From: a virus
Reading direction: 5' to 3' (one strand)
IMG/VR virus record: IMGVR_UViG_3300043409_000558
Coordinates: 1 to 25,881 of that record
DNA: 25,881 nt
How positions within the stretch are numbered: position 1 is the first letter of the stretch; every line of letters begins with the position of its first letter. The notes under the pieces are model-generated. The model searched no databases, was not told the origin of the DNA, and saw only the letters and a program-made list of their open reading frames with translations. Of the stretch, positions 1-17,373 are shown in pieces. Both the position numbers and the translations under genes were made by a program.

Positions 1-999
1 CCCTGATATGCCAGAGAACCCCGAATAACCAGAAATACCTGAAAATCCTGAGTATCCTGAAATCCCTGAATAACCGCTGATCCCTGAAAATCCTGAGTAT
101 CCTGAAATCCCTGAATAACCGCTGATACCCGAAAAACCTGAGTATCCTGAGATACCTGAAAATCCTGAGATTCCTGAGTATCCTGAAATACCAGAAAAGC
201 CACTGTATCCACTTACGCCAGAACCTGAAAAACCAGATATACCTGAAAAACCAGAATAACCAGATATACCAGAAAACCCGCTAATACCAGAATAGCCAGA
301 AATTCCGCTGTAACCAGAAATTCCAGAAAAACCACTGATCCCAGAAAACCCTGAATACCCAGATATGCCTGAAAATCCGCTATACCCAGAAATGCCAGAA
401 AAACCGCTGTATCCTGATATTCCGCTGTAGCCAGATATTCCTGAATAACCTGATATTCCTGAAAAACCTGAGTAACCAGAGATGCCTGAATAACCACTAA
501 TGCCAGAGTATCCAGAGATTCCCGAAAAGCCAGAGTACCCTGAAATACCTGAAAACCCCGAATAACCACTGATACCAGACCCGCTATATCCCGATATCCC
601 CGAAAAACCGCTAATTCCAGAAAAGCCAGAATACCCAGAAATTCCTGAAAATCCAGAAATTCCACTGAAGCCAGAAATTCCAGAGTAACCGCTTATACCT
701 GAATAACCTGATATTCCAGAGAAACCGCTATAACCAGAAATACCTGAAAAACCAGAATACCCAGAATTGCCTGAAAATCCAGAGATTCCAGAAAAACCAG
801 AATAACCAGAAACCCCTGACCCAGAATATCCTGATATTCCTGAACCAGAATAACCAGAAATTCCTGAGTAACCAGAAATTCCGCTATACCCTGAAATTCC
901 AGAATAACCAGAAATTCCAGAATAACCAGAAATGCCTGAGTTCCCAGAGATACCCGAATAACCAGAAAAGCCTGAGTACCCAGAGACTCCAGAATAGCC
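1..999 (-). repeat. about 333-residue Gly-X-Ser triplet repeat array in the tail fibre
   Basis: Each 9-base step encodes Gly-X-Ser, often pairing into 18-base units (Ser-Gly-Ile-Ser-Gly-Tyr or Ser-Gly-Phe). At least three places (two near 815-850, one near 575) lose one residue to give Ser-Gly-Ser-Gly, resembling interruptions in collagen. X is bulky and hydrophobic rather than proline, which is unusual for a collagen triple helix. The array continues past the left edge. Confidence 0.85.
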
Positions 1000-3140: not shown

Positions 3141-3536
3141 TTACCATCCAGAGCAGTTCCAACGCTTCAAAGAGGCTTTTGCCCTTGGTGCATCGCCCTT
3201 AGCGTGCTCCACAACTCCACTCATTCGGGCACAAAAAGAATCTTTACGTGCGCCGCCTTGAGGTTGAGGTGCCTTGAGGTTAGAACCTGTTTCTCGATTG
3301 TACTTTTCTCTGCCTTTTTTTGTAAGTCCTGCGCCTTGTTTTACGGAAAGTTTTTCACCACGGCCAACTGCAAGACTTACGCCGCCTTCTTTTAATTTGG
3401 CGGTTTTTGCTGACTCTCGGAAGGCTTCAGCCGTTGGCGCACCTTTGCTACCAACTCGGCGCATCTTTTCGCCAGAGCCTTCAGCAATTCTTTCGCGTTT
3501 TGCATTAAGGTTTGCATACAAGCCCTTCTTAATCAT
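3141..3536 (-). CDS. small basic conserved viral protein (DUF6321-like C-terminus)
   Basis: 131 residues. I chose ATG at 3536, two bases after the upstream stop (TAA AT ATG); the Shine-Dalgarno is weak, so coupling is likely. The N-terminal half (KKGLYANLNAKRERI, then GSGEKMRR and SKGAPTAEAF) and the C-terminal half (GLTKKGREKYNRETGSNL, then QPQGGARKDSFCARM, GDAPRAKASLKRW) are both motifs I remember from many aquatic phages and also from large algal viruses; the second resembles the uncharacterised DUF6321 family. A central KLKEGGVSLAVGRGEK stretch carries the Gly-Gly motif seen in neighbouring proteins. It ends in Ser-Gly-Trp, and its stop codon region TGGTAAAGGA supplies the adaptor's ribosome-binding site. 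Strongly basic, so nucleic-acid contact is possible; function unknown. Confidence 0.75.
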   Translation of the reverse strand: MIKKGLYANLNAKRERIAEGSGEKMRRVGSKGAPTAEAFRESAKTAKLKEGGVSLAVGRGEKLSVKQGAGLTKKGREKYNRETGSNLKAPQPQGGARKDSFCARMSGVVEHAKGDAPRAKASLKRWNCSGW

Positions 3537-3538
3537 AT

Positions 3539-3877
3539 TTACCAATCAGAATTCTTTTTGCCCTTTGATGCTGTAGAAACACCGCAAGCTCCAAGATTAA
3601 TTTTCCCACCAGTGGTGTAACTTTTCTTGGCCGCTCCACCTTTTTTATACATTGCCGTGTTTGGTGGTGAGCTACCACCACCACCACCCAAAGCACTTTG
3701 GGCTTGTCCAATAGCATTACCAATCGTAGAAGCTCCAGAATTGACTTGACCAAGTCCGTCTTGCGCGCTACCGCCACCGCCACCCAAACCTTTGCCGCCG
3801 GGATTAGGCATTGGCACTGTAGGCGTGTCAGATGGACTAGGATCCGTCATTCCGCCAAGTGTTGCAATTGATGTCAT
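3539..3877 (-). CDS. Gly-rich small protein with KKGG-type motifs, unknown function
   Basis: 112 residues, ATG at 3877 with AAAGGA eight bases upstream, the AAAGGA being built from the upstream gene's stop codon. The protein is low in complexity: a Pro/Ser/Thr-rich start, two poly-Gly runs (residues about 32-36 and 65-69), then a basic tail with the motif pair MYKKGGAAKKSYTTGGKINLG and the end KKNSDW. These Gly-Gly motifs resemble those of the 447-residue protein and the large polyvalent protein nearby. I do not recognise a folded domain. Position between head-region genes suggests a minor virion or assembly protein, which is inference only. Confidence 0.65.
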   Translation of the reverse strand: MTSIATLGGMTDPSPSDTPTVPMPNPGGKGLGGGGGSAQDGLGQVNSGASTIGNAIGQAQSALGGGGGSSPPNTAMYKKGGAAKKSYTTGGKINLGACGVSTASKGKKNSDW

Positions 3878-3887
3878 TTTTTTTCCT

Positions 3888-4325
3888 TTACCAGTTAGAC
3901 TTTACTTTGCCGCCAGCTTTAAATGGCGCAACTTTTCCTTTGCCAATTTTTTCTGACCACTCTTTGCGATGACTTGCGGCCTTGTCGGATGCGCCACGTT
4001 TTTCGGCATGTTCAGTAAAATTGCGCAGTCGGTTTGACTCACCGCGGCGTTGCAAGCGGCCCAATTGCTTTTCAGACTCTGCAGTTTTTCCAGAGGCTTT
4101 TGCAATGTCAAACATTTTGCGATTAGCAGTAAGTTTATTTACAAGTTTTTTGCTTTTGTGTTGTTGAGTGCGAGTCATTTGACTAGCAGTGTCATCGCCA
4201 TCATCGTCCTCATTACCACGAGGGTCGCCAATAGCTTTGTAATAATCCACATCACTGTCGTAGTCCATTGGATTTGTGGACATTGCACGTCCACCCATGG
4301 CTTTTTTTGATTTGATGTGTGTCAT
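3888..4325 (-). CDS. basic protein of unknown function, structural module
   Basis: 145 residues. ATG at 4325 lies two bases after the upstream stop; a longer frame exists upstream but has no better start signal. The N-terminus contains KKAMGGRAMS, followed by an Asp-rich acidic stretch, then a Lys/Arg-rich helical half (QHKSKKLVNKLTANRKMFDI, then LQRRGESNRLRNFTEHAEKR). It ends APFKAGGKVKSNW, combining the Gly-Gly-X-Val motif with a Ser-X-Trp end shared with the next two genes. High charge and helix content suggest nucleic-acid binding or a packaged internal protein, but no known family is recognised. Confidence 0.65.
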   Translation of the reverse strand: MTHIKSKKAMGGRAMSTNPMDYDSDVDYYKAIGDPRGNEDDDGDDTASQMTRTQQHKSKKLVNKLTANRKMFDIAKASGKTAESEKQLGRLQRRGESNRLRNFTEHAEKRGASDKAASHRKEWSEKIGKGKVAPFKAGGKVKSNW

Positions 4326-4327
4326 GA

Positions 4328-4732
4328 TTAGTTGTACCCTTTGGTCATCTCCAAAATGCACCAATAAGTGTCGCCAGACGAAGCATCAGCCGTGCTAAAC
4401 ACAATGTCGCCAGTAACGCCAGTTCCGCCGTTGTTGGTGATACCACCAAAAGCGCTCATGTCAAGCGTTTGCGTTGCACCGGGCGACGACAGAAAGAACG
4501 GCACATCGGTTGTGGCATCCCAAAACATTCTGACTTCCATGCCGTGGTTGGCAATGTAGATTTTGGTAACCGTTACTCTGGTACAAGTTTGCCCAGAAGC
4601 GCTAGGGTTTAACGCAGAAACGTCTACCTTCAAAACCGCACTTTCACCAGTGCCATCACTGATGTTTGTAAATTTCATAATGACCGTGCGCTCACCATCA
4701 ATAAGCGTTTGGCTCGTAACTGCATCAGCCAT
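4328..4732 (-). CDS. small conserved phage virion protein
   Basis: 134 residues, ATG at 4732 with GGAG six bases upstream, just after a terminator. The start MADAVTSQTLIDGERTVIMK and the segments FTNISDGTGESAVLKVDVSA and VRMFWDATTDVPFF match a small beta-rich protein family I recognise from many environmental tailed phages, normally encoded among head and neck genes. It may be a decoration, neck or fibre-base protein; the precise role is unknown to me. The whole protein looks like one beta-sandwich, without signal peptide or membrane segment. The terminator just upstream suggests this gene and those after it are expressed at a lower level than the capsid genes or from a separate start. Confidence 0.68.
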   Translation of the reverse strand: MADAVTSQTLIDGERTVIMKFTNISDGTGESAVLKVDVSALNPSASGQTCTRVTVTKIYIANHGMEVRMFWDATTDVPFFLSSPGATQTLDMSAFGGITNNGGTGVTGDIVFSTADASSGDTYWCILEMTKGYN

Positions 4733-4746
4733 ATTTTTCTCCAATT

Positions 4747-4768
4747 AAAAGCAGGGGCCGAAGCCCCT
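4747..4768 (-). terminator. rho-independent terminator with UUCG loop
   Basis: On the minus strand AGGGGC, loop TTCG, GCCCCT, then GC and TTTT. The six-pair GC-rich stem with the very stable UUCG loop lies between the stop of the 447-residue protein (4776) and the start at 4732. The U-run is short, so some readthrough is expected. Confidence 0.75.
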
Positions 4769-4775
4769 ACTCAGT

Positions 4776-6119
4776 TCAGCACATTGCTCTTCCGCCGCTC
4801 CGTTTAGGCGCTACAGTAACTGATTTTTCAGTTTTTGTAACGCTACCCGCTGGTGCTGGCTTGCTAGTAAAGTAATCCTTCATCTTTTGATAACCCTCTT
4901 TGGCCATACTCAAAGGATTCAGCGCCTCTTCAAGCTCACGGCTTGCTTTGTCTGTAATCACTTTGGGATCGCCAGTTGGGGTAACACGAGATTCATTTTC
5001 ATACTTTTTTGCTTCGCCACCATTTTGGTAACGGTTTAATTGACCCTTTGCGGTGTCATGCGCGTCTCCTTTGTCATCCGTGTGGTAGTCGGCATCTTTG
5101 TAATGCTTACCCTTTGGATCAAAAAATTTGACTCGATGCTCACCGTAATCTACGTCTTTATAAACTTTGGCAACGTGACCCTTCGGGCCTGTATGGGTCT
5201 TCAATAAACGCAAAGGAGTGGAACCCCCCCAAGTGCTAGTTCCACCCTTAGCCTTTTTTGAAACTTCTCCGCCATCCTTAAAAGTACCAGAAACACGATT
5301 AGTGCTTACAGGAGACGAAACTGGCTTTTTGGGCATCGCGACGGGTTTGCCTGTATCAACAGTTCCCCCCGTCGCGTAGGCTTTTTTTGTTGAACCACCC
5401 ATCTTGTAGCCGCCACCGTTGGCTTTTTTTACGCCACCAGTGGTGGTGTTGGTCACGCCGGGTTTGGCCGTATCAGCAGGGCGGTTTTCCCAATTGACGT
5501 TTCCGCCATCTTTAAAACCCGCGCCGTTACCCATCCTGACGCCACCAGTGCCGCCTTTGGCTTTAGAACCATGTTCAGCGGTTCCTATGTCACCATTTAA
5601 ATACTTGCCTGCGTTGCCTTTGATAGTGCCGCCGTTGGCATAGCCACCTGCATTACCCATCTTGACACCGCCAGTACCGCCTTTTGACTTAGAACCGTGT
5701 TCAGCAGTTTCCATGTCAGTGTTTACGTACTTGCCAGCATTACCCTTGACAGTAGTTTTTGCCATGGATGCAGTAACACCGCCGCCATCAGCAAACTTCT
5801 TACCAGCCATAGCCTTCTTGATCATTTTGCGATCTTGAGCGGCGTCGTCATGCATCTCAGCTTTGCCACCTTTTTTGGCCATCATCATAGGGTTCATCAT
5901 TTTGGGGCTCATCGCTTTACGACGAGCCATCATTGACGGACGCTTAGGTGCCATGCCCATTGGGGCACTTGCCATTGCTGGTGCTTGAGCAGGCATAGTG
6001 GACTGCATAGGCATGTAACCGCCGTCTGCTTTTTTCTCAACTTTGCCGCCCTTTTTAAGCTTCAGAATTACTGAAGGCTCCGTGGTCATCATTTTGACCA
6101 TTGGTTTGAATTGGCCCAT
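4776..6119 (-). CDS. Met- and Gly-Gly-rich repeat protein, structural module, unknown function
   Basis: 447 residues, ATG at 6119 with AAGGAG six bases upstream. A Met-rich stretch (residues 36-80) and about ten Lys/Ala-X-Gly-Gly-X motifs (for example KKGGKV 22-27, KKGGKA 82-87, ADGGGV 110-115, KDGGNV 203-208, ATGGTV 249-254, KDGGEV 281-286, QNGGEA 365-370) dominate the sequence. Residues 123-164 and 165-206 are a 42-residue tandem repeat (30 identical), with a decayed third copy to about 252. Residues 312-362 look folded, with HVAKVYKDVDYGEHRVKFFD and DADYHTDD, a short module I associate with other aquatic phage proteins. It follows the capsid cluster and is followed by a terminator. It may be a virion-internal or surface protein; no enzymatic motif is seen. 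Confidence 0.7.
   Translation of the reverse strand: MGQFKPMVKMMTTEPSVILKLKKGGKVEKKADGGYMPMQSTMPAQAPAMASAPMGMAPKRPSMMARRKAMSPKMMNPMMMAKKGGKAEMHDDAAQDRKMIKKAMAGKKFADGGGVTASMAKTTVKGNAGKYVNTDMETAEHGSKSKGGTGGVKMGNAGGYANGGTIKGNAGKYLNGDIGTAEHGSKAKGGTGGVRMGNGAGFKDGGNVNWENRPADTAKPGVTNTTTGGVKKANGGGYKMGGSTKKAYATGGTVDTGKPVAMPKKPVSSPVSTNRVSGTFKDGGEVSKKAKGGTSTWGGSTPLRLLKTHTGPKGHVAKVYKDVDYGEHRVKFFDPKGKHYKDADYHTDDKGDAHDTAKGQLNRYQNGGEAKKYENESRVTPTGDPKVITDKASRELEEALNPLSMAKEGYQKMKDYFTSKPAPAGSVTKTEKSVTVAPKRSGGRAMC
5502..5753 (-). repeat. two tandem 42-residue repeats in the Gly-Gly-rich protein
   Basis: Bases 5628-5753 and 5502-5627 encode consecutive 42-residue units starting TVKGNAGKYV and TIKGNAGKYL and sharing TAEHGSK and KGGTGGV. 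Thirty of 42 residues agree. Both units end in a Gly-Gly pair, so the motif marks the unit boundary. Confidence 0.85.
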
Positions 6120-6129
6120 GTTGTTCTCC

Positions 6130-7107
6130 TTATGCTTGTGTGACGCCAAGAGCGCCAGCACGGGTTGCATTCGGGCCTGCCGCAATTGCTGGCAGGGCTA
6201 TCCCCATCACGAGGCGCTTGATGCCGTCACAAGCCGATGAGGGCAAATAAGTACCCCTCACATCGCCCGTGGTTGTGGTGGCTGTCAAAGTGGCGGCGGC
6301 GGCAAAAGTACCAGCATCTTCTGCTAGAGTGTTATTCCAACCAGCGCGAGTGATGTATCCAGCATCAGTGATGCGCAGTGGCGCACCCAAGATGTCGGTT
6401 GTACCCACCGCAACGGTTACCACGCTTGCGCCAGAGGCGGTAACACTGGCAATTTGGTAAAAAGCTTTTTTACCATTGACGGTTGTTGATGCTACTGCTC
6501 CTGTTGCAATTACTTCGCTCATGGCCTGACCGTAGTAGTCATAGCCAGAGACGGTAATGTTGACAGTAGTTGGAGAGCCAGCGCCTGTAGTTGTAGATAC
6601 AGCACGAGGACAGTCAAGTTGCAGACCTGTACCACCACCAGTAATGGTTGTTGATGTAACACCAGCACCTGCGGCAAGCGTGAGCGTGGTAGCAGTTGTG
6701 ATAACAGCGGCAACAATGTTGGTTGTCACTTTTGCTTGTGGTACAGCGTCCCAAATATAAACGCGCCCTAATGGGCCAACGCCTACGCTCATTGGAGATG
6801 GGTTTTGCAAAAAAGCATTACCAGAACCAACGATGGTGGAGCTTGCTACAGTTTGTGAGGCGCTTACGGTGTAAGTGCCAATACCGCCAGAACCCGTACC
6901 CAAAGCGGTAATGTAGGTTCCGTTGGTGAGTGAAGTTGAACTGTCAATAAACATACCCACAGTAATTGGGTCACCCGAAAGCATCTCGGTAACGGTCAAT
7001 GTAGTGGAAGCAATTGAACCAGTAAAAGTTGCAACAGCAGGGTATTGATCTGTACCCTGAGTCGTAATAGCAGTACCTAAAAATAGGTCGTCGGAAAATT
7101 GAGGCAT
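6130..7107 (-). CDS. phage structural protein downstream of the capsid gene
   Basis: 325 residues, ATG at 7107 with AAGGAG eight bases upstream; the longer open frame upstream runs through the terminator and is not used. The protein starts [20 protein letters not shown] and is made of Thr/Ser/Gly/Ala-rich beta-type sequence without Cys-rich or catalytic motifs. The segment [20 protein letters not shown] (about residues 62-81) is a pattern common in virion proteins of large environmental phages. [16 protein letters not shown] follows. Directly after the major capsid protein it is probably a head-associated or fibre-type virion protein. Ten bases separate it from the next gene. Confidence 0.7.
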
Positions 7108-7138
7108 TTGATCTTCTCCTTGAAAAGCTTGATCAGTT

Positions 7139-7169
7139 AAAAAAAAGGGCTGGCTTTTTAGACCAGCCC
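7139..7169 (-). terminator. strong rho-independent terminator after the major capsid gene
   Basis: Minus-strand stem GGGCTGG and CCAGCCC with a nine-base loop, followed by eight T residues. It starts nine bases after the capsid stop codon (7178) and precedes the structural gene at 7107. It probably sets capsid mRNA level above that of the genes further left. Confidence 0.9.
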
Positions 7170-7177
7170 TGTTTGCT

Positions 7178-8092
7178 TTAGACGCCAGCAGTGCCGTAAA
7201 CAGCACGCGGGTCAGTGAAGCCAACTGTATAACGCTCCGTAGCCTTGTAACGCATGGAGTCGGTTTCAAAGTCACCTTCCATGGTTTTCTCAAGACGACG
7301 ACGCATCAACAATTTCAACCCTTCTGGGGCGTCAGTCTGCACCCAAAATGCAGTAGATGAGGTCAAGCGACTGATAACAGCGGCACCTTCGTCCAACAAG
7401 CCAATTGACTTGACGGGGTTGATGTCGTTGTTTGCATTACCAGTACGCAAAACGCTCTTTAACAACACTTCGGCTTGGAAAATATTGCCGGGTGCCACAA
7501 TCAATTGACGTGGAACCAAACGAATTTTCTTACCGTTGTTGTCAACTGCTTGACGGACTTGAATCAGCATTTGCTCTAGTGAAGTCTGCGACAAGTTAGC
7601 GGCAGTTGCCAACTGGTTGCTAAACGTACCATTCACAATTGGGTGAGCAGTGTTGACCAAAGAAACGCCATCGCCACCGGGGAAGCTAGAGTTAAACGCA
7701 GTGTTCAGCACGTTAGCCGACAACAGTTCTTTGGTTTCCACCAAAGACTGTGCCAAATGGCGCGCATAAACTTGACCGATACGAATATGGTCACCGTCTT
7801 CAACAAGCACTTTGGTCAAAGCGAAGGCCAAGCCATACACTCGGTACACATAGCGTTGCAAGAAGAGTACGCCACCTTGCTGATAGGTCACCGGGGTGCC
7901 ATCGGGCAATTGGGGCGCGGCTCCAAATCCATAAAGGACGGGCTCTTCGTGATAGTTACGGGGAATGCCGTCTTCTTCGCGGAACACACGGCTCCACTCG
8001 TCGGCTCTTTGGTCATAGACTCCGTCAAAACACTCGTTGAGAATTGGCTCAACGATGGAACGGAAGTCCGTACTTCGCATTGGTGCGGCCAT
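7178..8092 (-). CDS. major capsid protein (HK97 fold, Mu gpT-like)
   Basis: 304 residues, ATG at 8092 with AAGGAG nine bases upstream. It forms the icosahedral shell. The segments [20 protein letters not shown] (N-terminal arm and E-loop area), [17 protein letters not shown] (residues 144-160), [20 protein letters not shown] and the C-terminal [16 protein letters not shown] follow the order of Mu gpT-like HK97-fold capsid proteins; the VNTAHP and LIVAP stretches are typical. Length is normal for the family. No N-terminal delta domain is visible, in line with a separate scaffold upstream (9322-10305). It is followed by the strongest terminator of the window. Confidence 0.87.
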
Positions 8093-8105
8093 AGTAATTT
8101 ACTCC

Positions 8106-8738
8106 TTAAACGACAGCAGTAGTTGCCGCAACAAATTGCACATATGGCAATGTTACGCGAACAATCACGTATGCATCACCCCAGTTGTTGTCCACGTATG
8201 GTGCAATATCAACAACGCGCATTTGACCTTGAGCACCGTTCGTTTGAGCGGATGCAACAGCCAAAGTTGCTTGCGACAAACCAGTGGTTGTGGAACCAGC
8301 GGTAATGTTGCTGAAGTTGTACTCGTTACCAATTGAGGTTTGAGCCAAAGTACCATCACCTTGAATTTCATAAACGATGTTTTGGTCGTTGTAGAAATAA
8401 GCGATGCAGGAACCCGTTTGGAATGCGGTACCAGTTGGCCAATAATTGGATATGCGACGACGACCCGTGGTATCAGTCCACTCAGTACCAGCAAATGCAC
8501 CTGCGACTTGATAGCCAGAAGATGCGGCGCTGTTACCGGGGGTACCCGCGGGGATGATAGTGCCGTTGGCGGCACCAGTAGAACCGACTGTGGCGGCGGT
8601 TGCGTATGTAACAGGCTGACCCTTCAAAATATTGACGGCCAAACCTGACGTGATACCGTTAGCAAGCGCCTGTGCGCGATCCAGACCAGAGGGATGGAAC
8701 GCAGGACGCAAGCCAAACGGAGCAGAGGATGAACTCAT
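8106..8738 (-). CDS. probable capsid decoration or minor head protein
   Basis: 210 residues, ATG at 8738 with AAGGAG five bases upstream. The N-terminus SSSSAPFGLRPAFHPSGLDR followed by a Gly/Thr/Ala-rich beta domain (ILKGQPVTYATAATVG, then YQVAGAFAGTEWTDTTGRRR) matches a family I know from phages in which it is encoded immediately before the capsid protein. The likely role is a shell-stabilising decoration or second head protein. It has no membrane segment, cysteine motif or enzyme signature. Fourteen bases separate it from the capsid start, so both are probably made from one message. Confidence 0.68.
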   Translation of the reverse strand: MSSSSAPFGLRPAFHPSGLDRAQALANGITSGLAVNILKGQPVTYATAATVGSTGAANGTIIPAGTPGNSAASSGYQVAGAFAGTEWTDTTGRRRISNYWPTGTAFQTGSCIAYFYNDQNIVYEIQGDGTLAQTSIGNEYNFSNITAGSTTTGLSQATLAVASAQTNGAQGQMRVVDIAPYVDNNWGDAYVIVRVTLPYVQFVAATTAVV

Positions 8739-8758
8739 GAAAACTCCTTAGTTAAAGA

Positions 8759-9304
8759 TTACCCAGAAAAAACTGGGACTTTGCTTGGTTGCTGATCAAA
8801 AGAGCCAATACCTTCGCCTTCAACATTTACTAGCGACTTGCCATTGCTATCTCTTTGCCCTTGAAGATTTTCGATCTGAACGCGAACTTTGTCGCTTTCC
8901 TCACGAGGTTTATCATGGTGGTGATACAACATGAGATCCTGATAAATATCCATTGGCAATTTAAATAGCAACATTTCGTTGCAGGAAATATGCCCAATAT
9001 GCTCTCCAGATTTGACTCGATAGTCTTCATAGCCCGGTAACTCTTCAGATTTAACTGGAACGTACCCATTGCGTATCCGCTTATCGATTGAATCGTAGCT
9101 ATTGGTTGTCGAAAGCCAGCAAAGGTGCCACCCATCTAAATTGGGCAGTTTCGGCAATGCTGATTGCGTCCATTCCTCGTCCCACATCTTGCGACGTTCT
9201 TGCGTAGAAATGAACTTTGTCTCTGGGGCTGAACGGGTTGCGTCCTCACTTGCGCGATCATCGCGTCCACCAGCTTTGAGAGATTTTTTTAAACGTGAAT
9301 CCAT
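8759..9304 (-). CDS. conserved phage head-module protein
   Basis: 181 residues, ATG at 9304 with GGAG eight bases upstream. The order LDGWHLCWLSTTNSYDSIDK, then GYVPVKSEELPGYEDYRV and GHISCNEMLLFKLPMDIYQD matches a conserved family that I associate with the slot between scaffold and capsid genes in podovirus-like environmental phages. The first 40 residues are charged (SLKAGGRDDRASED) and probably disordered; the last 30 are Gly/Ser-rich. No enzyme motif is seen. A structural or head-assembly role is inferred from position. Confidence 0.65.
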   Translation of the reverse strand: MDSRLKKSLKAGGRDDRASEDATRSAPETKFISTQERRKMWDEEWTQSALPKLPNLDGWHLCWLSTTNSYDSIDKRIRNGYVPVKSEELPGYEDYRVKSGEHIGHISCNEMLLFKLPMDIYQDLMLYHHHDKPREESDKVRVQIENLQGQRDSNGKSLVNVEGEGIGSFDQQPSKVPVFSG

Positions 9305-9321
9305 GTTAGTTGCTCCAAGTA

Positions 9322-10305
9322 TTAGTTACGGGTTTGGTTCTGACGATCATATTTTCTGAATTCGTCAATCATTCGCTTCTTGCGGTCTGGGTTATCCCAT
9401 GCGCCTACTTCCTTCATTGCCTTAACCCTTTCAGGAGAAAGAATGAATTGAGAACTGTTACGTCCTCCGTATGCCGCCGAAGCTTCACGACCTGAACTTC
9501 CCACAACGTTCCTCGGTTTTCTAACAGCAAAATCGCCGTTCGATGTTTGATTGTAACGGTGTGGCAATGATTTTTGCAAGCGGCTGTCAAGTTCATCCCA
9601 ATAATCGGGATCAGAAGGATTCCATCCCTCTGTAACTAACAGTTCGTCCACCTTCTTTGCAACTTTGCTATCACTGTCACTTGCGTCTGGGTTATACCAA
9701 GAATTGCGCTTCATCCAATCTGCCGCATTACGCTGAACGGTTGGATTAGGCATCTCTTGATGAGCAGGTGCTTGCGCTTCTTGCGATGCGCGGTGCTTCA
9801 TTCCCTGCAATTTGTTGATTTGATCTTCAGCCTGACGCCATAACGTCTGGGCTTCAACCATTGCTTCGCCGTCACTGTTATCCGCGGCCTCTTTAAGCTT
9901 CATCTTGGCGTATTCCAAGCGTACTTGGCTGTCCTCAATGTTCTTGTCTATGCGCGAGATCTGACCTTGCTTGGTTTCACGCTCAACATTTGACAAGCGG
10001 CGCTTAAATTCTTCGTTTTCGCGCTGTAACACTTGCAAACGGACGTCTTTTTCCTTGTTTTCAGCCCTAAAAGCTTGTCTTTTGGCCTTGCGACGGTTGC
10101 GTTTGGCCTCTCTAAGCTCTTGATCGTCGTCTGGATGGTCTAAATCCTCACGATCTAAGCCTTCATTGTCTGCTTTTGCCGGGGCAAAATCATCTTTTTG
10201 CTCGTGATCGTCATCAATCATGCTTTCTGGTAAATCAACGACTGCGGAACCGTCTTTTTCCTCTTGCACCATTAATTCAATCTTTTCTTTGGTATCTGTG
10301 CTCAT
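9322..10305 (-). CDS. putative scaffolding protein
   Basis: 327 residues, ATG at 10305 with AAGGGA six bases upstream. Acidic N-terminus with the motif DGSAVVDLPE at residues 18-27, which also occurs in the portal N-terminus. Residues about 65-165 are highly charged heptad-like helix (REAKRNRRKAKRQAFRAENK onward, QVLQRENEEFKRRLSNVER), a probable coiled coil. The C-terminal region has a Trp/Asp-rich segment (WNPSDPDYWDELDSRLQKSL) and a basic end (RKKRMIDEFRKYDRQNQTRN), as expected for a capsid-binding tail of a scaffold. The location between portal and capsid, the length and the helix content all fit. No protease motif is visible, so scaffold removal may need a factor outside this window. Confidence 0.72.
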   Translation of the reverse strand: MSTDTKEKIELMVQEEKDGSAVVDLPESMIDDDHEQKDDFAPAKADNEGLDREDLDHPDDDQELREAKRNRRKAKRQAFRAENKEKDVRLQVLQRENEEFKRRLSNVERETKQGQISRIDKNIEDSQVRLEYAKMKLKEAADNSDGEAMVEAQTLWRQAEDQINKLQGMKHRASQEAQAPAHQEMPNPTVQRNAADWMKRNSWYNPDASDSDSKVAKKVDELLVTEGWNPSDPDYWDELDSRLQKSLPHRYNQTSNGDFAVRKPRNVVGSSGREASAAYGGRNSSQFILSPERVKAMKEVGAWDNPDRKKRMIDEFRKYDRQNQTRN

Positions 10306-10315
10306 TTTTTATCCC

Positions 10316-10771
10316 TTAAACATAGGCTTTAAACGACAAAGGATCGTCAGTGATTTTTGCTATCACTTCGTGATCATTAATCGTCATGAATAGCACTTGG
10401 TCTTCGTTAGATTCTTCGCTTGGAACATTGCGCTCCCAACGATCGCCGCCCCATCGAGGTACGCGAACAAAATCTCCAACCTGTGCCCAAGTTCCCTCTG
10501 GCCAAGACTCCATGGTTTCACGGTTCTTGTACGCCAAAGGCCCAAGTGCCACGACCCTACCGATCATGTTGTTCCACTTTTCGTTTTCTTTGGTTTCATC
10601 CACGATGATGATCATTCCAGCCTTCTTTTTGATGCGACGTAATTGAACTATTACGCGCCCTCCAAGAGGTGCCTGCCCCGGATTTACATCAGGGAACGCC
10701 CATGCCAACTCTTTAGGGTCAGACGCTTGCGCGCTTCCCCCGATCGTTGGGATCTTTTCTCTTTCACTCAT
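10316..10771 (-). CDS. phage GroES-like co-chaperonin
   Basis: 151 residues, ATG at 10771 with TAGGAG five bases upstream. Residues 35-140 follow the Cpn10 pattern: PLGGRVIVQLRRIKKKAGMIII, where the usual GroES mobile loop carries GGI-V-L and this protein has AGMIII (51-56); IGRVVALGPLA (70-80); VGDFVRVPRWGGDRW (98-112); and the closing beta strand INDHEVIAKI (131-140). An extra 34-residue N-terminus and a short C-terminal tail distinguish it from host GroES. Co-chaperonins of phages (for example T4 gp31) replace GroES on host GroEL to fold the capsid protein, which fits this gene's place between portal and scaffold/capsid. It is preceded by a hairpin-rich leader. Confidence 0.8.
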   Translation of the reverse strand: MSEREKIPTIGGSAQASDPKELAWAFPDVNPGQAPLGGRVIVQLRRIKKKAGMIIIVDETKENEKWNNMIGRVVALGPLAYKNRETMESWPEGTWAQVGDFVRVPRWGGDRWERNVPSEESNEDQVLFMTINDHEVIAKITDDPLSFKAYV

Positions 10772-10813
10772 ACTAACTCCTAAAACACACCATATTTCAG
10801 GTGCAACATTTAA

Positions 10814-10850
10814 GCGCTTTTCAGCGCGGCCTCAGTCCTTTAGGGGGACT
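10814..10850 (-). other. two tandem RNA hairpins in the leader of the co-chaperonin gene
   Basis: The 78-base gap 10772-10849 contains, on the minus strand, AGTCC with GGACT around a seven-base loop (10834-10850) and GCGCT-GAAA-AGCGC (10814-10827), a five-pair stem with a GNRA tetraloop. Neither is followed by a U-run, so they are not canonical terminators. They could protect a processed mRNA end or tune readthrough from the portal operon. Confidence 0.5.
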
Positions 10851-11029
10851 TATTCTTGATTCTTTTCTTCGTCTAACATTCTGTTAATGGAGTCAAGGAC
10901 ATATTGAATTCCTTGATTTTCACCAACCATGCGTTGGTACGCTTCCCACGTATTTGCGTTGCCATTAGCAAGAGATAAGGCGATCTCTCCTTGTCGCAAC
11001 CTGATTACGTGCAATATTGCTCCAATCAT
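10850..11029 (-). CDS. small conserved post-portal protein
   Basis: 59 residues, MIGAILHVIRLRQGEIALSL at the start. ATG at 11029 overlaps the stop of the preceding 52-residue gene (ATGA). The pattern NTWEAYQRMVGENQGIQYVL resembles small helical proteins encoded just after the portal in many tailed phages (Trp-x-x-Tyr-x-x-x-x-Gly-x-x-x-Gly-hydrophobic). It is predicted to be all helical and soluble. Function is unknown; a head-completion or chaperone role would be a guess. The stop lies at the base of the first leader hairpin of the next gene. Confidence 0.65.
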   Translation of the reverse strand: MIGAILHVIRLRQGEIALSLANGNANTWEAYQRMVGENQGIQYVLDSINRMLDEEKNQE

Positions 11030-11184
11030 TTTTTCTTTGCTTGTGACAAACCGCCAACAGGTTTCTTGGAATTGCTACTTCCGCCTTTGGGTTGCATTGC
11101 GGTGCCATCAAGTTTTTCGCCCATGGCGATACGCTTGTGTTGTGGCACGTTGATGGTTCTTTGTTCGTATTCACTGGTAGACAT
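11026..11184 (-). CDS. small basic protein after the portal, unknown function
   Basis: 52 residues starting MSTSEYEQRTINVPQHKRIA. ATG at 11184 has an excellent AAGGAG six bases upstream that lies inside the 3' end of the portal gene; the portal stop (11186-11188) is one base away. The C-terminal half, MQPKGGSSNSKKPVGGL then SQAKKK, is Lys-rich with two Gly-Gly motifs like those in the left-hand structural proteins. No domain recognised. It overlaps the next small gene by four bases. Confidence 0.62.
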   Translation of the reverse strand: MSTSEYEQRTINVPQHKRIAMGEKLDGTAMQPKGGSSNSKKPVGGLSQAKKK

Positions 11185-11185
11185 T

Positions 11186-13687
11186 TCATACTCCTTGGGG
11201 TCGAGGCATTGGCTCGGGTGGTGGTGGTGGCGCTGACATCGCAGGCGGTGCCTTTGGTGCGGGTGGTAGCGCAGGGGGTTGCTGTGGAGTTGCCGCCACA
11301 TCATTCGCATGTTGAATCGTTTGGTGAGTCAACTTTGAATTTTCAATATCGATCTTGGTTTGGTTATCCATCGCATGCTTTTGCATATCTGCCTGCAATT
11401 TGGCTTGATCGTATTGGATATCCGCTTGGTCTTTTGCCGCACGTCGCTGAGTTTCTGCCATGCTCGTATCGTGGACAACTTGTGCATCAGGCGGCAATGT
11501 TTGCTTGGCTTGTTGTTGACGCTTCTGAGCTTGCTGAATCAATTGCTGGAATGCAGGCGCAAACTGTTGGAACGTATCTTGTACATCCAAGTTTACATGG
11601 GCACCAACTGTGGCATACATCTGGTCAATCGTTGCCGTCAGCCTTGGATCATCATAGTTATCTACAGGTTTTCCACCGCGGGTTTGAGCCACATAACCAT
11701 TAGAACGGTTCAAGTACCACAACGTCATGTGTTGCTTGATGTGCTCGATTAAATGGTTGAGGTAACTTGGATCTGCAAATGGCGACTGGCCCAAGAATGG
11801 GTTTAAGCCAAATTGCAAGTGATCCTGAATGTGCGCAATGTGATCTTGTTGCATGTACGCATAGGCAGGCTGGCCAATCAGCATGGCCGCGTTTTCATCA
11901 GCAGAGGTGCGTTGTTCAGGCGCAGGCACATCCTTCATCAATTCATTAATGTTGGGCACCTTCATCTGCTTGAGTGAACGAGACAACACAGCGCCCATGT
12001 TGAACTGGTCAGGGTGCTTTTCCGCCAACTGCATCACAGCCTGCATCTGGGCCATGCGCTGTGTCTCAGAGAAGATGTGCGGGTCAGACACTGGCACAAC
12101 GTCCGTGTTCTTGGCAAAGTCTTGGCGATTGATATCCAAGTCAACCACCACATCAGACTTGCGCATATCGTCAAAGTGCCAACGGTTCAATCGGCAAAGA
12201 ATTCTTAAAACGCGTGCTTGGCTTTCGTGCAGTCGCGCATGAATAGCGCTAAACACCGCGGCCCCTTGTTCAATCAGAGCCTGCGTGGTGCCCACAGGAG
12301 CCTGTGCAGACACGTCAGCGATCTTTTCTTCGCTGGTGGTCACTACCCCCTTAGCCGCGGTATCAAGCCAGCCTAGGAGCTTAAATAAGACCTCGCTGGG
12401 TGGGTTGAACGGCATGGGCATGGCAATCTGGCGAATATCGGAAACGCCGGGTGCGCCCTCGATCTCCACAATCTGCGTCACTTCCACTTGCTGGCTCTGG
12501 CCACTAATCTTTGCTCCTTTGAGCTTTAGCATCGTGGCCGCGTTGTTAATGTGAGCCGAATCCATCAAGGCACGCAAAGCACCCGTCAAAGCCGCACTGA
12601 GTCCACCAATTAAGTGGGGGAGGCCAATTGCATATGCACCACGCCACGGAATAAATTTAAACTCCACGATCCAATCTAACTTGGTCATCGTGTCGTCTGT
12701 TTCCTCCCAATTGCGATACAGGCCAACAACCTCGTTGTCTAACTCGTCAATCATCAGGATGTACGGAGCCATCTCGCCCTTGCTGTACTCGTCCTCTTCC
12801 AATTCTAAGAACGCGTAGATGTGATACACCTTGCGCAGGCCATCGCTGTTGTCTTCGTACTTCTTGCCTTCAATCTTGTCGTTGGCTTTTTGCGCTTTGG
12901 TTGGCTCGACTTCCGTCGTTGCCTTGACTAGCGTAACGTCACGGTACATGCCGCTGGTAATCCGACGATTAAACTCCCAGTGCGTAATCTCGTGCATCTC
13001 AGCGGCACGTTCTGCGGTGTAGAAATTACTGGCCGCAAAGGGCAATATTACTCTGTCAATTGGCAAGAACTCCACGCATGGGCGCTTCTTCTGCTCGTCA
13101 AACCATAACTTAAAGTATTGCGATCCACCCAAAGGCAATTGCGTCAGCATCTGCTCTTGCTCATCACGGAACTCTTGTATCTGCTCCGTAATCTGCCAGT
13201 TCAAGTAGTCACGCTTGCGCTCAGCACGATCAGCTTTAACGTCGTCCATCTTGCCCAAGATTTTTGTACGTACAGGGCCATCAGGTGGAAACATTTCTTT
13301 AATTGCACGAGCGGCAAAGTCAACACAACCCTCAGCCATGGCCGGGTGCACAACTTTGCTGGCACCCATAAACGTTGCACCACCGGGGGCGTCGTTGCCC
13401 ATACCAGTGCGCTTGATGCCCTCTTCGTACTGCTTGTCACGTTGTTCGCGTGCATCCTTATCGCTCTTTAGCAAATCGATATAACGACCCGACATCGACG
13501 TCAATTCCATAGGGTCATACGACTCTGCCATGTTGGCGTAGAAATCTGGATTGACCTCTGGGCCATCATCCTCAACAGTAACAATGGCACTGCCGTCTGG
13601 CTGTTCTTCCGTCTGCATCTCAGGCAGATCTACAACCGCGCTACCGTCTTCGTTCTCAGTAATCTGTGGGTCTAATTCATCCATCAT
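11186..13687 (-). CDS. portal protein
   Basis: 833 residues, ATG at 13687 overlapping the stop of the upstream large gene (ATGA). Portal proteins form the dodecameric ring at the packaging vertex and dock terminase. The acidic N-terminus carries DGSAVVDLPE (14-23) and a second form DGSAIVTVED (31-40). The core follows podovirus-type portals: NDAPGGATFMGASKVVHPAM, GGSQYFKLWFDEQKKRPCVE, a wing domain, FKFIPWRGAYAIGLPHLIGG, then LTGALRALMDSAHINNAATM and VTTSEEKIADVSAQAPVGTT. From about residue 600 on, the C-terminus is Gln/Ala-rich helix, expected for the barrel, ending in a Pro-rich tail. The length fits a large podovirus portal with barrel extension. Confidence 0.85.
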   Translation of the reverse strand: MMDELDPQITENEDGSAVVDLPEMQTEEQPDGSAIVTVEDDGPEVNPDFYANMAESYDPMELTSMSGRYIDLLKSDKDAREQRDKQYEEGIKRTGMGNDAPGGATFMGASKVVHPAMAEGCVDFAARAIKEMFPPDGPVRTKILGKMDDVKADRAERKRDYLNWQITEQIQEFRDEQEQMLTQLPLGGSQYFKLWFDEQKKRPCVEFLPIDRVILPFAASNFYTAERAAEMHEITHWEFNRRITSGMYRDVTLVKATTEVEPTKAQKANDKIEGKKYEDNSDGLRKVYHIYAFLELEEDEYSKGEMAPYILMIDELDNEVVGLYRNWEETDDTMTKLDWIVEFKFIPWRGAYAIGLPHLIGGLSAALTGALRALMDSAHINNAATMLKLKGAKISGQSQQVEVTQIVEIEGAPGVSDIRQIAMPMPFNPPSEVLFKLLGWLDTAAKGVVTTSEEKIADVSAQAPVGTTQALIEQGAAVFSAIHARLHESQARVLRILCRLNRWHFDDMRKSDVVVDLDINRQDFAKNTDVVPVSDPHIFSETQRMAQMQAVMQLAEKHPDQFNMGAVLSRSLKQMKVPNINELMKDVPAPEQRTSADENAAMLIGQPAYAYMQQDHIAHIQDHLQFGLNPFLGQSPFADPSYLNHLIEHIKQHMTLWYLNRSNGYVAQTRGGKPVDNYDDPRLTATIDQMYATVGAHVNLDVQDTFQQFAPAFQQLIQQAQKRQQQAKQTLPPDAQVVHDTSMAETQRRAAKDQADIQYDQAKLQADMQKHAMDNQTKIDIENSKLTHQTIQHANDVAATPQQPPALPPAPKAPPAMSAPPPPPEPMPRPQGV

Positions 13688-16600
13688 TTAGCCTTCTTTG
13701 ATTTGCGGCTTAATTCTAAGTTCATGATATCCATATTTGTGGATAGGTTCACTTTGCCGCCTTTTTTGTAACCCAAGCGCTTCTTCATTGCAAGCTCGTA
13801 TTCGCCCATCTGATTGATGTATTGCTCATCGATTGGCTCACGAATAATGTTCATCTTTGCTTGGTTGAACGGAACAACTTTCTTGCCCATCCGCGCAATC
13901 TCTTGTCTAGCATTGTGCATTGAACGTGGTGCCAAGATATCGGCAGGCGTAGTGTAACGAGTACGTCCCACTAATTTTGATGGTATGTCGTGACCATACG
14001 TCGGGTGAGGGGAAATGCTTTCCTTCAAGCTACGGTTTGGATCAAACTTAATGATTGACGATCCGCCTGCACCAGTCTCAATGTCGCGCAACTCAGGATG
14101 GCTAATTGCATAGATGATGTCATCTAGCTTTTGCTTACCGCCAGCCATGTACTTCTCTTTGCCCAGCATGCTAATAATTTTCTTGCGCATGCCTGAATTA
14201 AACGGCGCTTGCAATCTGATGTCCGACGGATTTTCAAAACCGGGAAAGTCAGGATAGGGCTTGTCATTCTTGTTGGTGGTCAACTTTACATTGCGCATTA
14301 AATGGTTAAGTTGCTCAATTTGCTCTTTAGGCAACTTGTGCGGCTGATGGTGCGCTAACACTGAGTCCAGCATATGCACTGCGTGATACAACGCCTCTGG
14401 TGACATCTTGTGGTAGTGGCCATAGACATCCATCTCAGGATTATCTTTAGCCAAACGCTTCACCACGTTAAACATGCCTCGGCTGGCACCCAAGTCACTT
14501 GCCCAGCCAGCAGGATGGCCATAGGCACCATAGTCTTTGCCACCGTACAAACCAACAGGTTGCTCCAAAGTTTCAAAGCCAATTGATTTGAGATACTCGC
14601 CTGCTTCAGGTGATTCCATATTTGAATTCTTGCTGGGCATTACGCCACCGCGGCTTGTGTCACCGGGTACGCCTACCGAGTACGAACCCTTCAGGTTTCC
14701 GTAATCAATGATTGGCGTCTCATTCTTCTTTGAGCTTTCAATTCCAACTTGCAAATCCTTTTCACGCGCTATCTGTTGCAGTGTCTTACCCGTTGGGTTT
14801 TCTTGTCCAGAAGTTTGACGCGCCATACGCTCAGCATGCGCCTCAATGTCCGCCTTACTTAATGTTGGCGATGGGCCGTAGTACAAGGGCTTTGCAGGCT
14901 TTGCTGGCTTAGCAGATCCACCCTTGGCATACACCTCACGCTTGCCGTACTTGGGATTCTTGGCCAGCACCAACGGGCCAATCTGCACAACGTGCTCAGC
15001 ATGGGTAATGGGTTCCATCGTCTCGCGGTCATAGAAGTCACCATGACGGCGTGGGTCGTAGCCCACCTGACGATAATCAGGGTGATTAAAATACTTCTGA
15101 AAATGCTTGACAGCCTGATCTTCAGTCATGTGCTCGAGATCACCTATGATCTTGGCAAATGGCGCTTTGTTCTGCTCGCCAGTAGCCACGCGAACCGCTT
15201 TGTGTGGCGAGCCGTGGAACTCAGCATTGCGCACTGAGGAGACGGGGCCGTAGGACGTTGCAAGTTTTTTCTCGCCGCCTGACTCATCATGTACAGAATT
15301 TACCCACACACCATGATCTTCATATGCCGGGATGTCCAACCTCAAACCAACGCGGTGGCCAGCAGGCCATGACTCATGACCACGCCATTTTGCTTTCTTC
15401 GGCTCATGTAGTGCGCGCATTGCGTCTTTATCAGTGGCAGGCTTGGGAATGAACTCATAAGGCTTGACAGGCTTTTCTTTGGCCACAACCTTGGCATACG
15501 CCTTTTGCTTCATGTCGCCTTCCATCAAGGCACGAGCCGCGGCTTCAATCTTTGGGTTACGACGTGATGCCTTGTCATCAAACACAGTAGGGCGCACGTC
15601 AACTTTAGGCGGTTGCCCACCATCTTTTAACAATTTATCATCATTGATATCAAATGGGGCATTGTTGTCAGGCATCCAAGAAACCGATCCACCATCAGCC
15701 ATCTTAGGTGGCGCTTTGGGTGGCGTCATGGCGTTCATAGCCTGCCCTTGTGGCGTCATCTGTAAGATGTTGCTTGGCGCTTGTGGAGGAGGCGCTCCAC
15801 CACCCAATGGGGAAGGCATGCCCTGTTGCTCTGCGCCCTGCGGTGGCTGGCCTTCTGGTGGTTGCTTAGGCACCAAGCTCTGAGGTAGCAACTGATGCCC
15901 CTCCTGTAATTGGCTCATGTCAACACCGCCAACTGGCATTGGACTGCCATCATTCTTGGGCGGCAGATATTCTTTGATATCCATGTTAGGCGCTTCTTTA
16001 GCCCCTATCTTTGTCATATCTGAAAGTGATGTGGGATTCTTAGTGGCCAACTCAGCGCGCATTTCATTGACTGATGGCACAGCACCGCCAACCGCCTTCT
16101 TGATCACATTGGGCGTCAATGGGTGCATTTTCTTGCCAGTCTTCTCTCGCACGTAGTAAGCGTTGTGGCCAGCCTTGCGCATGCCCTGCTGGACTCGTGA
16201 GTCTTCCAAATACTTATGGGTACCCGCTGACAGCATCTCGCCCATGTGCTTATGCACGTCAGGGATCTTGTTGAAATCTTTGTGCTTGGCAACATGCCCA
16301 GCCACCGACGTTACGTGCTCAGGGTTCTCATAGTCGAATGGATTATTCACATCGCCTCCTTCAGCGTATCCGCGCATGGCTTTAATAATGTCATTGTGCG
16401 TTGTTTGATTATTACCCGAGGCATCCCATACTGCATGGTGTGCCAAGTGTTGGTAGTGCGGTTGCATGGCCGGGTCTATCTTTAGATTCATGGCCGACTG
16501 CCTTGACGCTAATCGATCTACGGCTTCACGAGCCCCTTGACCTTTGCCTCGATTCATGATAGAGCCAATGCCAACATTTGCAGGCAATGAATGCAGATTT

Positions 16601-17343
16601 AATTGGCGCGCATCGAGCGTCGGCAGATCGCCACGGCCAAGCATCGATCCAATGAATCCAGACTTTGCCCCGGCCACACCCTTCATCTTCTCCGCAAAAT
16701 CGCGGTAGTCATCCTTCGACCCGGTAATCGCTTGGTTCAATTTCCGCGACATGGCAGGCATGTTCTGAGCCGCATAGATCATCTGGTCTGTCAATTGATT
16801 GTGCTTGCCAAACGGCGCGAATTTCTGTCGTATGTCATTAAGTGCAGGCTGATGCACCATACCGCGCTCTGCCGCGTTTAAATAGTTCTGCCCCATGGGT
16901 GACCCCAGCCATTCAGCAAAGGCACCTTCTGGCCTCACCTCGTCGCCCGTGTTGGGTAGCTTCATGCCAGTCTTGGTGGCCGTAGCATGGGACAGCCCAC
17001 CGCGTCCAATGCTAGATTGTGTGATGGTGAATGCCTTCAGCAAGTCTCGTGGTGTCAGCCCCGCCTCTCGCGCTCGAGCCAATTGCTGGTTCATGAACTC
17101 GCCATAGTTCTTCTGAACGTAGTCGGGCACCTCGATGATAGGCATGTCCTTGCGGACGTCCTGCATCTTGCGCCACTTCCAATCTTCAATCTTTGTCGTC
17201 TTGGGATCGCGATACTTAGAGACGTCGCCACCACCCTTCATCAACGAAAGGCGCATCATATCCATGTCTGTTGGTGTTTCCACGGCTATTCTTTCATTGT
17301 GGTATGCATGGATTATGCCTTCGGTAATGCGGTAAGTCCACAA
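13684..17343 (-). CDS. very large polyvalent-type phage protein between terminase and portal
   Basis: Up to 1219 residues. The start is unresolved: TTG at 17343 (GGA nine bases upstream) gives the longest form, GTG at 17283 or ATG at 17265 are alternatives without good Shine-Dalgarno. Residues 60-325 hold one domain with FAPFGKH and AKSGFIGSMLGRGD then PTLDAR (226-246), recalling the helix-hairpin-helix plus Asp arrangement of HhH-GPD glycosylases. Residues 490-550 are a Pro/Gln linker. Residues 653-800 (GHRVGLRLDIPAYEDHGVWV, RHGDFYDRETMEPI, IGPLVLAKN) and 873-1140 (YSVGVPGDTSRGG, YAISHPELRDIETG, HPTYGHDI) match regions of giant polyvalent phage proteins. Gly-Gly motifs punctuate domain borders. 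Such proteins are thought to be injected with DNA. Overlaps the portal by four bases. Confidence 0.75.
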   Translation of the reverse strand: MWTYRITEGIIHAYHNERIAVETPTDMDMMRLSLMKGGGDVSKYRDPKTTKIEDWKWRKMQDVRKDMPIIEVPDYVQKNYGEFMNQQLARAREAGLTPRDLLKAFTITQSSIGRGGLSHATATKTGMKLPNTGDEVRPEGAFAEWLGSPMGQNYLNAAERGMVHQPALNDIRQKFAPFGKHNQLTDQMIYAAQNMPAMSRKLNQAITGSKDDYRDFAEKMKGVAGAKSGFIGSMLGRGDLPTLDARQLNLHSLPANVGIGSIMNRGKGQGAREAVDRLASRQSAMNLKIDPAMQPHYQHLAHHAVWDASGNNQTTHNDIIKAMRGYAEGGDVNNPFDYENPEHVTSVAGHVAKHKDFNKIPDVHKHMGEMLSAGTHKYLEDSRVQQGMRKAGHNAYYVREKTGKKMHPLTPNVIKKAVGGAVPSVNEMRAELATKNPTSLSDMTKIGAKEAPNMDIKEYLPPKNDGSPMPVGGVDMSQLQEGHQLLPQSLVPKQPPEGQPPQGAEQQGMPSPLGGGAPPPQAPSNILQMTPQGQAMNAMTPPKAPPKMADGGSVSWMPDNNAPFDINDDKLLKDGGQPPKVDVRPTVFDDKASRRNPKIEAAARALMEGDMKQKAYAKVVAKEKPVKPYEFIPKPATDKDAMRALHEPKKAKWRGHESWPAGHRVGLRLDIPAYEDHGVWVNSVHDESGGEKKLATSYGPVSSVRNAEFHGSPHKAVRVATGEQNKAPFAKIIGDLEHMTEDQAVKHFQKYFNHPDYRQVGYDPRRHGDFYDRETMEPITHAEHVVQIGPLVLAKNPKYGKREVYAKGGSAKPAKPAKPLYYGPSPTLSKADIEAHAERMARQTSGQENPTGKTLQQIAREKDLQVGIESSKKNETPIIDYGNLKGSYSVGVPGDTSRGGVMPSKNSNMESPEAGEYLKSIGFETLEQPVGLYGGKDYGAYGHPAGWASDLGASRGMFNVVKRLAKDNPEMDVYGHYHKMSPEALYHAVHMLDSVLAHHQPHKLPKEQIEQLNHLMRNVKLTTNKNDKPYPDFPGFENPSDIRLQAPFNSGMRKKIISMLGKEKYMAGGKQKLDDIIYAISHPELRDIETGAGGSSIIKFDPNRSLKESISPHPTYGHDIPSKLVGRTRYTTPADILAPRSMHNARQEIARMGKKVVPFNQAKMNIIREPIDEQYINQMGEYELAMKKRLGYKKGGKVNLSTNMDIMNLELSRKSKKAK

Positions 17344-17348
17344 CCTGC

Positions 17349-17373
17349 TAGTTCCATACCCGGTATGGAACTA
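17349..17373. other. 25-bp perfect palindrome over the terminase large-subunit stop codon
   Basis: TAGTTCCATACC (17349-17360), one central C, and GGTATGGAACTA (17362-17373) are exact inverted repeats. Bases 17371-17373 are the terminase stop codon. No T-run follows on either strand, so it is not a standard terminator. A protein-binding site or an RNA hairpin separating two genes in the same frame are the likely options. Confidence 0.85.

Follow-up and report, generated by a model that had tools for sequence, protein, structure and literature searches.

The window analysed here is the whole of a 25.9-kb tailed-phage record (IMGVR_UViG_3300043409_000558) whose minus strand holds most of the genes, and several otherwise unlike proteins encoded there share a short glycine-glycine (GG) motif, the subject of this report. 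Reading downstream, small early genes are followed by terL, a large polyvalent protein (LPP), the portal, a GroES-like protein, a putative scaffold, a 181-residue protein, a 210-residue putative decoration protein, the major capsid protein (MCP), a 323-residue protein, a 447-residue protein, four small proteins, an SU10-adaptor-like protein and a fibre with GYSG repeats; the scaffold, decoration and GroES names come from position and the annotation of relatives. At its best consensus the motif spans seven residues: a hydrophobic or aromatic residue, A or K, any residue, GG, any residue, and V, I or A. We scored it with a strict pattern, [FYMLIVW][AKTQ]xGGx[VAI], and with the looser [KA]xGGx[VAI] of a first-pass annotation of the window. 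The principal genes are these.

17371-18801, minus strand: terL
13684..17343, minus strand: LPP of up to 1219 residues lying between terL and the portal, its start probably at residue 27
11186..13687, minus strand: portal (phrog_1216), motif-free, adjoining the LPP; a candidate partner of the motif
7178..8092, minus strand: MCP (Phage_capsid_4), motif-free, upstream of the second slot of motif carriers
4776..6119, minus strand: Gly/Lys-rich motif-array protein of 447 residues, with 7 strict motifs and 12 matches to [KA]xGG
3888..4325, minus strand: basic protein of 145 residues, with AMGGRA near the N-terminus, a C-terminal FKAGGKV and Trp as last residue
3539..3877, minus strand: protein of 112 residues, with YKKGGAA and YTTGGKI and Trp as last residue
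3141..3536, minus strand: DUF6321 protein of 131 residues, with the weak motif LKEGGVS and Trp as last residue
2061-3131: SU10-adaptor-like protein

Together, the proteins of 447, 1219, 112 and 145 residues hold 15 strict copies, all on the minus strand, against a chance expectation of 0.34 when whole proteins are shuffled, 0.4 when shuffling is confined to 20-residue blocks and 1.0 when every GG is held in place; these expectations also take in the 131-residue protein, itself without a strict copy. All other tested window proteins, pooled, contained none (0.5 expected), and the looser pattern gave 16 matches against 1.1 expected in the carriers and none in the remaining proteins. The local and GG-fixed shuffles rule out chance and low complexity as sources of the motif. 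This confirms the central claim of the first-pass annotation, that a Gly-Gly motif recurs in unlike proteins, and neither of the outcomes that it had named as refuting was found: the motif is not as frequent in non-structural genes, nor in shuffled sequence, as in the carriers. Its count of at least six carriers shrinks to four firm ones and a weak fifth, the 131-residue protein with LKEGGVS only; a 52-residue protein offers only PKGGSS and PVGGLS and is not a carrier. Similarly, its estimates of about ten copies in the 447-residue protein and about eight in the LPP become 7 and 5 by the strict pattern, with looser patterns yielding up to 12 and 7.

The window LPP carries five strict motifs, or six to seven with the looser pattern, and its core cassette is flanked on both sides by GG motifs.

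17221..17241, minus strand: MKGGGDV, LPP residue 35
16348..16368, minus strand: YAEGGDV, LPP residue 326
15658..16119, minus strand: core cassette, LPP residues 409-562, predicted disordered (alignment A1; pLDDT 25-35)
16078..16098, minus strand: variant KAVGGAV, LPP residue 416, at the N-side cassette border
15682..15702, minus strand: MADGGSV, LPP residue 548, at the C-side cassette border
15610..15630, minus strand: variant LKDGGQP, LPP residue 572
14911..14931, minus strand: YAKGGSA, LPP residue 805
13750..13770, minus strand: YKKGGKV, LPP residue 1192, near the C-terminus

An AlphaFold2 model of this protein, built from 33 sequences, had a mean predicted local distance difference test (pLDDT) score of 56, such confidence being low where few homologues exist, and showed several folded blocks. 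Six of the seven motif sites fell in blocks of mean pLDDT 25-46; the remaining one, YKKGGKV, sits on the edge of the final folded block (pLDDT 64). Domain searches returned only a sub-threshold match to Phage_L5_gp82; searches with the whole fold found no match with E below 1 in the PDB; the matches in BFVD were for the most part uncharacterised phage proteins, with a small number named for PcfJ, ART or zeta toxin. The LPPs of relatives range from about 550 to 1965 residues and carry ART-PolyVal, ASCH, GNAT, PcfJ-like and GP88 domains that differ between loci. To locate the motif relative to these exchanges, we compared 78 non-redundant LPP-slot proteins by all-against-all BLAST with every GG context masked. 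Homology ended within 25 residues of motifs with 2.9-fold enrichment, as against 1.5-fold for other GG (P 8e-15), and 27% of local alignments crossed motif sites, compared with 53% for other GG and 66% at random. The motif sits at junctions of swapped LPP modules, and the first-pass placement of the sites at borders and in linkers, outside folded cores, holds.

This position in predicted disordered linkers at module borders also suits the main rival to the docking peptide that we favour below, namely a passive linker grammar: the motif would be a preferred flexible hinge or turn between modules that unfold or thread through portal and tail, and would bind nothing, only flexibility counting. 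The free charge around the motif agrees with this as well. Plain flexibility, however, leaves unexplained the fixed hydrophobic residue at -3 and the V, I or A at +3, the shuffles that keep GG and local composition yield 1.0 copies against 15 seen in the window and 15 against 283 in array proteins, and the copies of the small proteins lie near C-termini, where there is nothing to link. We regard a bare hinge as less likely than docking, but as its most serious competitor.

Breaks in LPP homology at motif sites might alternatively reflect a signal in the DNA, the encoded GGN-GGN stretch serving as a short homology for module shuffling. Yet the codon pairs of motif Gly-Gly are as diverse as those of other GG (entropy of 3.18 and 3.04 bits, respectively), their Ala and Val codons are mixed, and the motif is dense also in the array protein and present near the C-termini of the small proteins; a recombination signal is disfavoured, and we give it very little credence. 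Net charge around the motif averages +1.5 in the array protein, +0.3 in LPPs and -0.1 in unrelated phages, with the hydrophobic-GG-V pattern retained throughout. The pattern thus persists although both charge and codons change, so that selection operates at the protein level. A DNA-binding role was rejected, as net charge is not conserved.

The clade, a family of freshwater phages, was sampled as 80 loci recovered by their portal, plus the environmental genome MW202545, with open reading frames (ORFs) called mechanically by a simple script and assigned by BLAST, many of the contigs being partial; because the loci are related, motif counts across them are non-independent events. A 58-kb contig has a portal 98% identical to the window's; the annotated relatives by portal are MW202545 (78%) and Caulobacter phages such as KcrB (47%), with Roseobacter CRP-901/902 and Pelagibacter HTVC023P/027P more distant at about 30-35%. 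Assigned by family, 138 strict motifs fell in the LPP family and 283 in the array protein, and there were none in 154,229 residues of clade terL, portal, GroES, 181-residue, decoration, MCP and 323-residue proteins. Per 1000 residues, this amounts to 1.58 motifs between terL and portal and 6.1 between MCP and adaptor, as against 0.011 between portal and MCP and 0.085 upstream of terL. With GG fixed, the expectation was exceeded in LPPs (173 against 27), in array proteins (283 against 15) and in the small proteins (35 against 7). In the clade the motif keeps to two slots, one on each side of the head-assembly block, the first occupied by the LPP and the other by the array and small proteins; five genomes of 55-58 kb show the same pattern, with a few motif matches in tail-side proteins.

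Within the LPP, the cassette is the constant element. About 145 residues long and rich in Pro, Gln and Gly, it occurs in an LPP of all 68 loci that show both terL and portal, with the consensus IxKAxGGxVxPSxxQMRAEL...IGANEAPxMxxKxY...PVGGVDM...QPGxQLMP...SNILQMTPQGQAMxAM...MAxGGx. Its place varies from the N-terminus to past residue 1500, and many LPPs have weaker second part-copies downstream of it. Searching with the cassette brought in 72 further loci, some of them lying on the same contigs, and the portal came next in 60 of the 60 with that region visible (61-98% identity). It was not found in the isolates with more distant portals or in the motif sample of other phages described below; among the clade members examined, the cassette is strictly linked to the window's portal type.

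The second slot holds the densest motif rows.

6039..6059, minus strand: LKKGGKV, which opens the motif series of the array protein and is invariant
3903..3923, minus strand: FKAGGKV of the 145-residue protein
3599..3649, minus strand: YKKGGAA and YTTGGKI, the two motifs of the 112-residue protein

Array proteins of the clade carry 7-11 copies each; the array protein is predicted to be mostly disordered save for an optional domain at about residues 300-365. In alignment A4, many of the invariant columns are motif GG pairs (24-25, 205-206, 236-237, 241-242, 251-252 and 283-284), and the spacers vary in length and composition. A tblastn search with the motif-dense part of the array protein against 50,697 phage records returned MW202545 and one weak match only. 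The optional folded domain (phrog_7884) is inserted between two motifs; Pseudomonas phages have stretches related to it, for some of which the annotation is putative lysis protein. At the C-terminus, array proteins of loci L002-L080 mostly have K(R)RGG and then a brief tail whose last residue is usually Cys; many of these proteins have His-rich spacers.

Such repetition would be natural if the motifs were multivalent stickers: through contacts with one another or with the array protein, they would collect cargo in the prohead as an inner body or condensate. The 7-11 copies per array protein and several per LPP speak for it, as does the invariance of the motif rows within the array; there is also a weak correlation between LPP and array in their K/A usage (rho 0.42, P 0.016, without phylogenetic correction). 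Many phages of the wider sample, on partial contigs, nevertheless have a motif LPP with no array protein in view, and we judge the sticker improbable.

Like the internal proteins of T4, the small proteins encoded between array and adaptor are basic, with a net charge of +0.11 per residue. Three of them, adjacent on the minus strand at 3141-4325 and of unlike families, end in KSNW, NSDW and CSGW. Terminal Trp recurs in relatives, in 27/28 DUF6321, 7/7 145-residue-family and 3/3 112-residue-family members and in 23 of the 67 unassigned ORFs between array and adaptor, at 0-1% in other classified zones and at 4% among unclassified ORFs, a set that includes some members of Trp-ending families. The small Trp-ending proteins form four clusters by BLAST single linkage. 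No terminal Trp was seen in 86 motif-bearing ORFs of other phages; in two of these phages (L134 and L151), small motif proteins share a tail KRADG..(Q/K)RGKTKGR or similar in its place. Relatives of the DUF6321 protein (3141-3536) occur in 529 phage records, mostly of cyanophages and pelagiphages of several morphologies.

Beyond the clade, we scanned for DNA encoding FAEGGEV and examined 80 loci; this and what follows for the motif sample hold among the matches listed. With the seed masked, they gave 60 further motifs against 1 in shuffled sequence and a like consensus (F or Y at -3, A at -2, V at +3), and with GG contexts masked the motif ORFs fell into eight unlinked groups. For 72 large neighbours of multi-motif ORFs, terminase and portal phrog_1216 topped the PHROG matches at 12 each, and 3 neighbours matched a DNA ejection protein family. 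A portal of the superfamily lay on 19 contigs, 27-52% identical to the window's where measurable; there the motif ORF was upstream between terL and portal in 15 (directly adjacent in 13), directly downstream of the portal in 3 and farther downstream in 1. The motif has survived both domain swaps and portal divergence. A sample drawn by portal alignment, some rows of which came from motif contigs, held 46 motifs in the terL-portal interval (5 in shuffled sequence) and, within 5 kb downstream of MCP, another 32 (0 in shuffled sequence), with other places near chance; the motif was present in 17 of the 26 loci with an LPP-like ORF, and 27 loci had no LPP. The model phages N4, P22, SU10 and HTVC010P have 0-1 copies in the stretches examined, and hence no experimental literature could be linked. 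Long proteins at L100:7614-13346 (plus strand), L139 and L150 have a C-terminal motif beside a recurrent SD(D/S)(I/V)PAM(L/I)..GE/D(F/Y)V module, which occurs in several unlike phages.

Confinement to two slots, persistence through domain swaps and co-occurrence with the portal superfamily favour a loading or docking signal. We propose that the motif is a short linear docking peptide that recruits cargo to a head protein during assembly, to which we assign a probability of about 0.48. The peptide would be carried in flexible linkers and tails of head-destined proteins, namely the LPP, the disordered array protein and the small basic proteins. As the prohead assembles, its exposed hydrophobic residue, Gly-Gly turn and Val would occupy, in extended form, a groove on one head component common to all carriers, so that cargo with unrelated domains could be recruited through several weak contacts and ejected later with the DNA. 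The groove might belong to the portal, the scaffold, the inner capsid face or the array protein as a hub; the carrier genes lie to either side of those for portal and scaffold, which makes these two candidates. Kept residues, free charge and varied codons are better accommodated by a peptide lying in a groove than by nucleic-acid binding or a DNA signal.

Several observations weigh against a docking peptide. We infer the carriers' virion location from gene position and domain type, some motif proteins sit tail-side, and a short glycine motif in disordered linkers equally resembles a hinge. Furthermore, 9 of the 26 LPP-like ORFs in the portal-drawn sample are nearly devoid of the motif, as are Caulobacter, Roseobacter and Pelagibacter isolates with related portals; the association with the portal is therefore strong, not obligatory.

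Of the three roles that the first-pass annotation had offered, a loading tag, a contact to one partner and a protease site, the first two fare better than the third. A protease cutting after Gly-Gly could free modules in the head or after injection, the sites being exposed and between modules, and P1 DdrB-type polyvalent proteins are indeed processed (PMC5512222). Cutting at every motif, however, would leave the array protein in more than seven pieces and fragment the carriers, and neither an S78 prohead protease, in a Peptidase_S78 search that detected its controls, nor a ClpP-type protease was found in seven relatives of 48-58 kb; a C48-family protease was likewise not found in relatives, in a search that detected no positive control. 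Adenain- and PLpro-type GG sites have their hydrophobic residue at P4, compared with P5 here. With no S78 or ClpP-type protease found in the seven relatives and carriers that would fall to pieces, processing is a weak reading that we think most improbable.

A docking peptide has partial precedents. In T4, a capsid targeting sequence (CTS) of about 10 residues alone loads foreign, diverse proteins into the head (PMC9026906), and like the motif it is a short sequence common to otherwise unlike, often basic internal proteins; the CTS, however, is a single N-terminal peptide of other sequence cleaved by gp21, whereas the window motif is internal or C-terminal with up to 11 copies per protein, and cleavage by a prohead protease has no counterpart in the Peptidase_S78 search of the seven relatives. 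Encapsulin cargo loading peptides also are short linear peptides that recruit diverse cargo to an HK97-fold shell (PMC11190991), and that of T. maritima, GGSENTGGDLGIRKL, has GG followed by hydrophobic residues, a resemblance only; it is one terminal copy serving a cellular compartment, unlike the multi-copy, mostly internal motif.

Polyvalent proteins are presumed to enter the virion and to be injected (PMC5512222), and LPP relatives with ART-PolyVal, ASCH, GNAT and PcfJ-like domains beside the portal gene resemble them; the window LPP, between terL and portal as in relatives, adjoins packaging genes as polyvalent proteins do. The text of that description mentions no glycine, linker or low-complexity feature, and relative to it the motif and cassette appear new. 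NCBIfam and Pfam hold no such named motif, and in open-licence PubMed Central we found no earlier description of it and, among papers containing FAEGG-, YAEGG- or FADGG-like strings, none on phages. F116-like phages (Hollowayvirus F116, phiC725A) encode a 695/720-residue protein with LAEGGRV or FADGGRV and FADGGVV, adjoining a giant protein with MAMGGPA that is annotated as internal virion polymerase in phiC725A; they differ in having few copies, and the comparison draws on their annotation.

More tentatively, the motif may belong to an undescribed head-loading code across a large portal superfamily of environmental phages, in which a multi-copy internal Gly-Gly docking peptide would be joined by lineage-specific helpers, here a mobile disordered LPP cassette and a C-terminal Trp on small basic proteins, so that effector domains could be swapped while delivery into virion and host is kept. 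Selection of non-structural effectors for head entry is known for very few phage systems. If the tag is real, candidate injected effectors could be listed from sequence in environmental phages of this portal type, and polyvalent-protein delivery would become directly testable; even as a mere linker, the motif helps to locate module borders in polyvalent proteins.

Three further observations concern the rest of the window and its relatives. The protein at 10316-10771 (minus strand), in the slot of relatives' annotated GroES co-chaperonin between portal and scaffold, is kept across the clade and in KcrB, CRP-901 and HTVC phages. At 1-1716 (minus strand), truncated at the record end, lies a protein resembling tail fibres, in which a collagen-like GYSGISGYSGFSG repeat extends over a long stretch. 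Two metagenome-assembled cassette contigs bear the labels Rubrivivax and Betaproteobacteria, which hints weakly at hosts.

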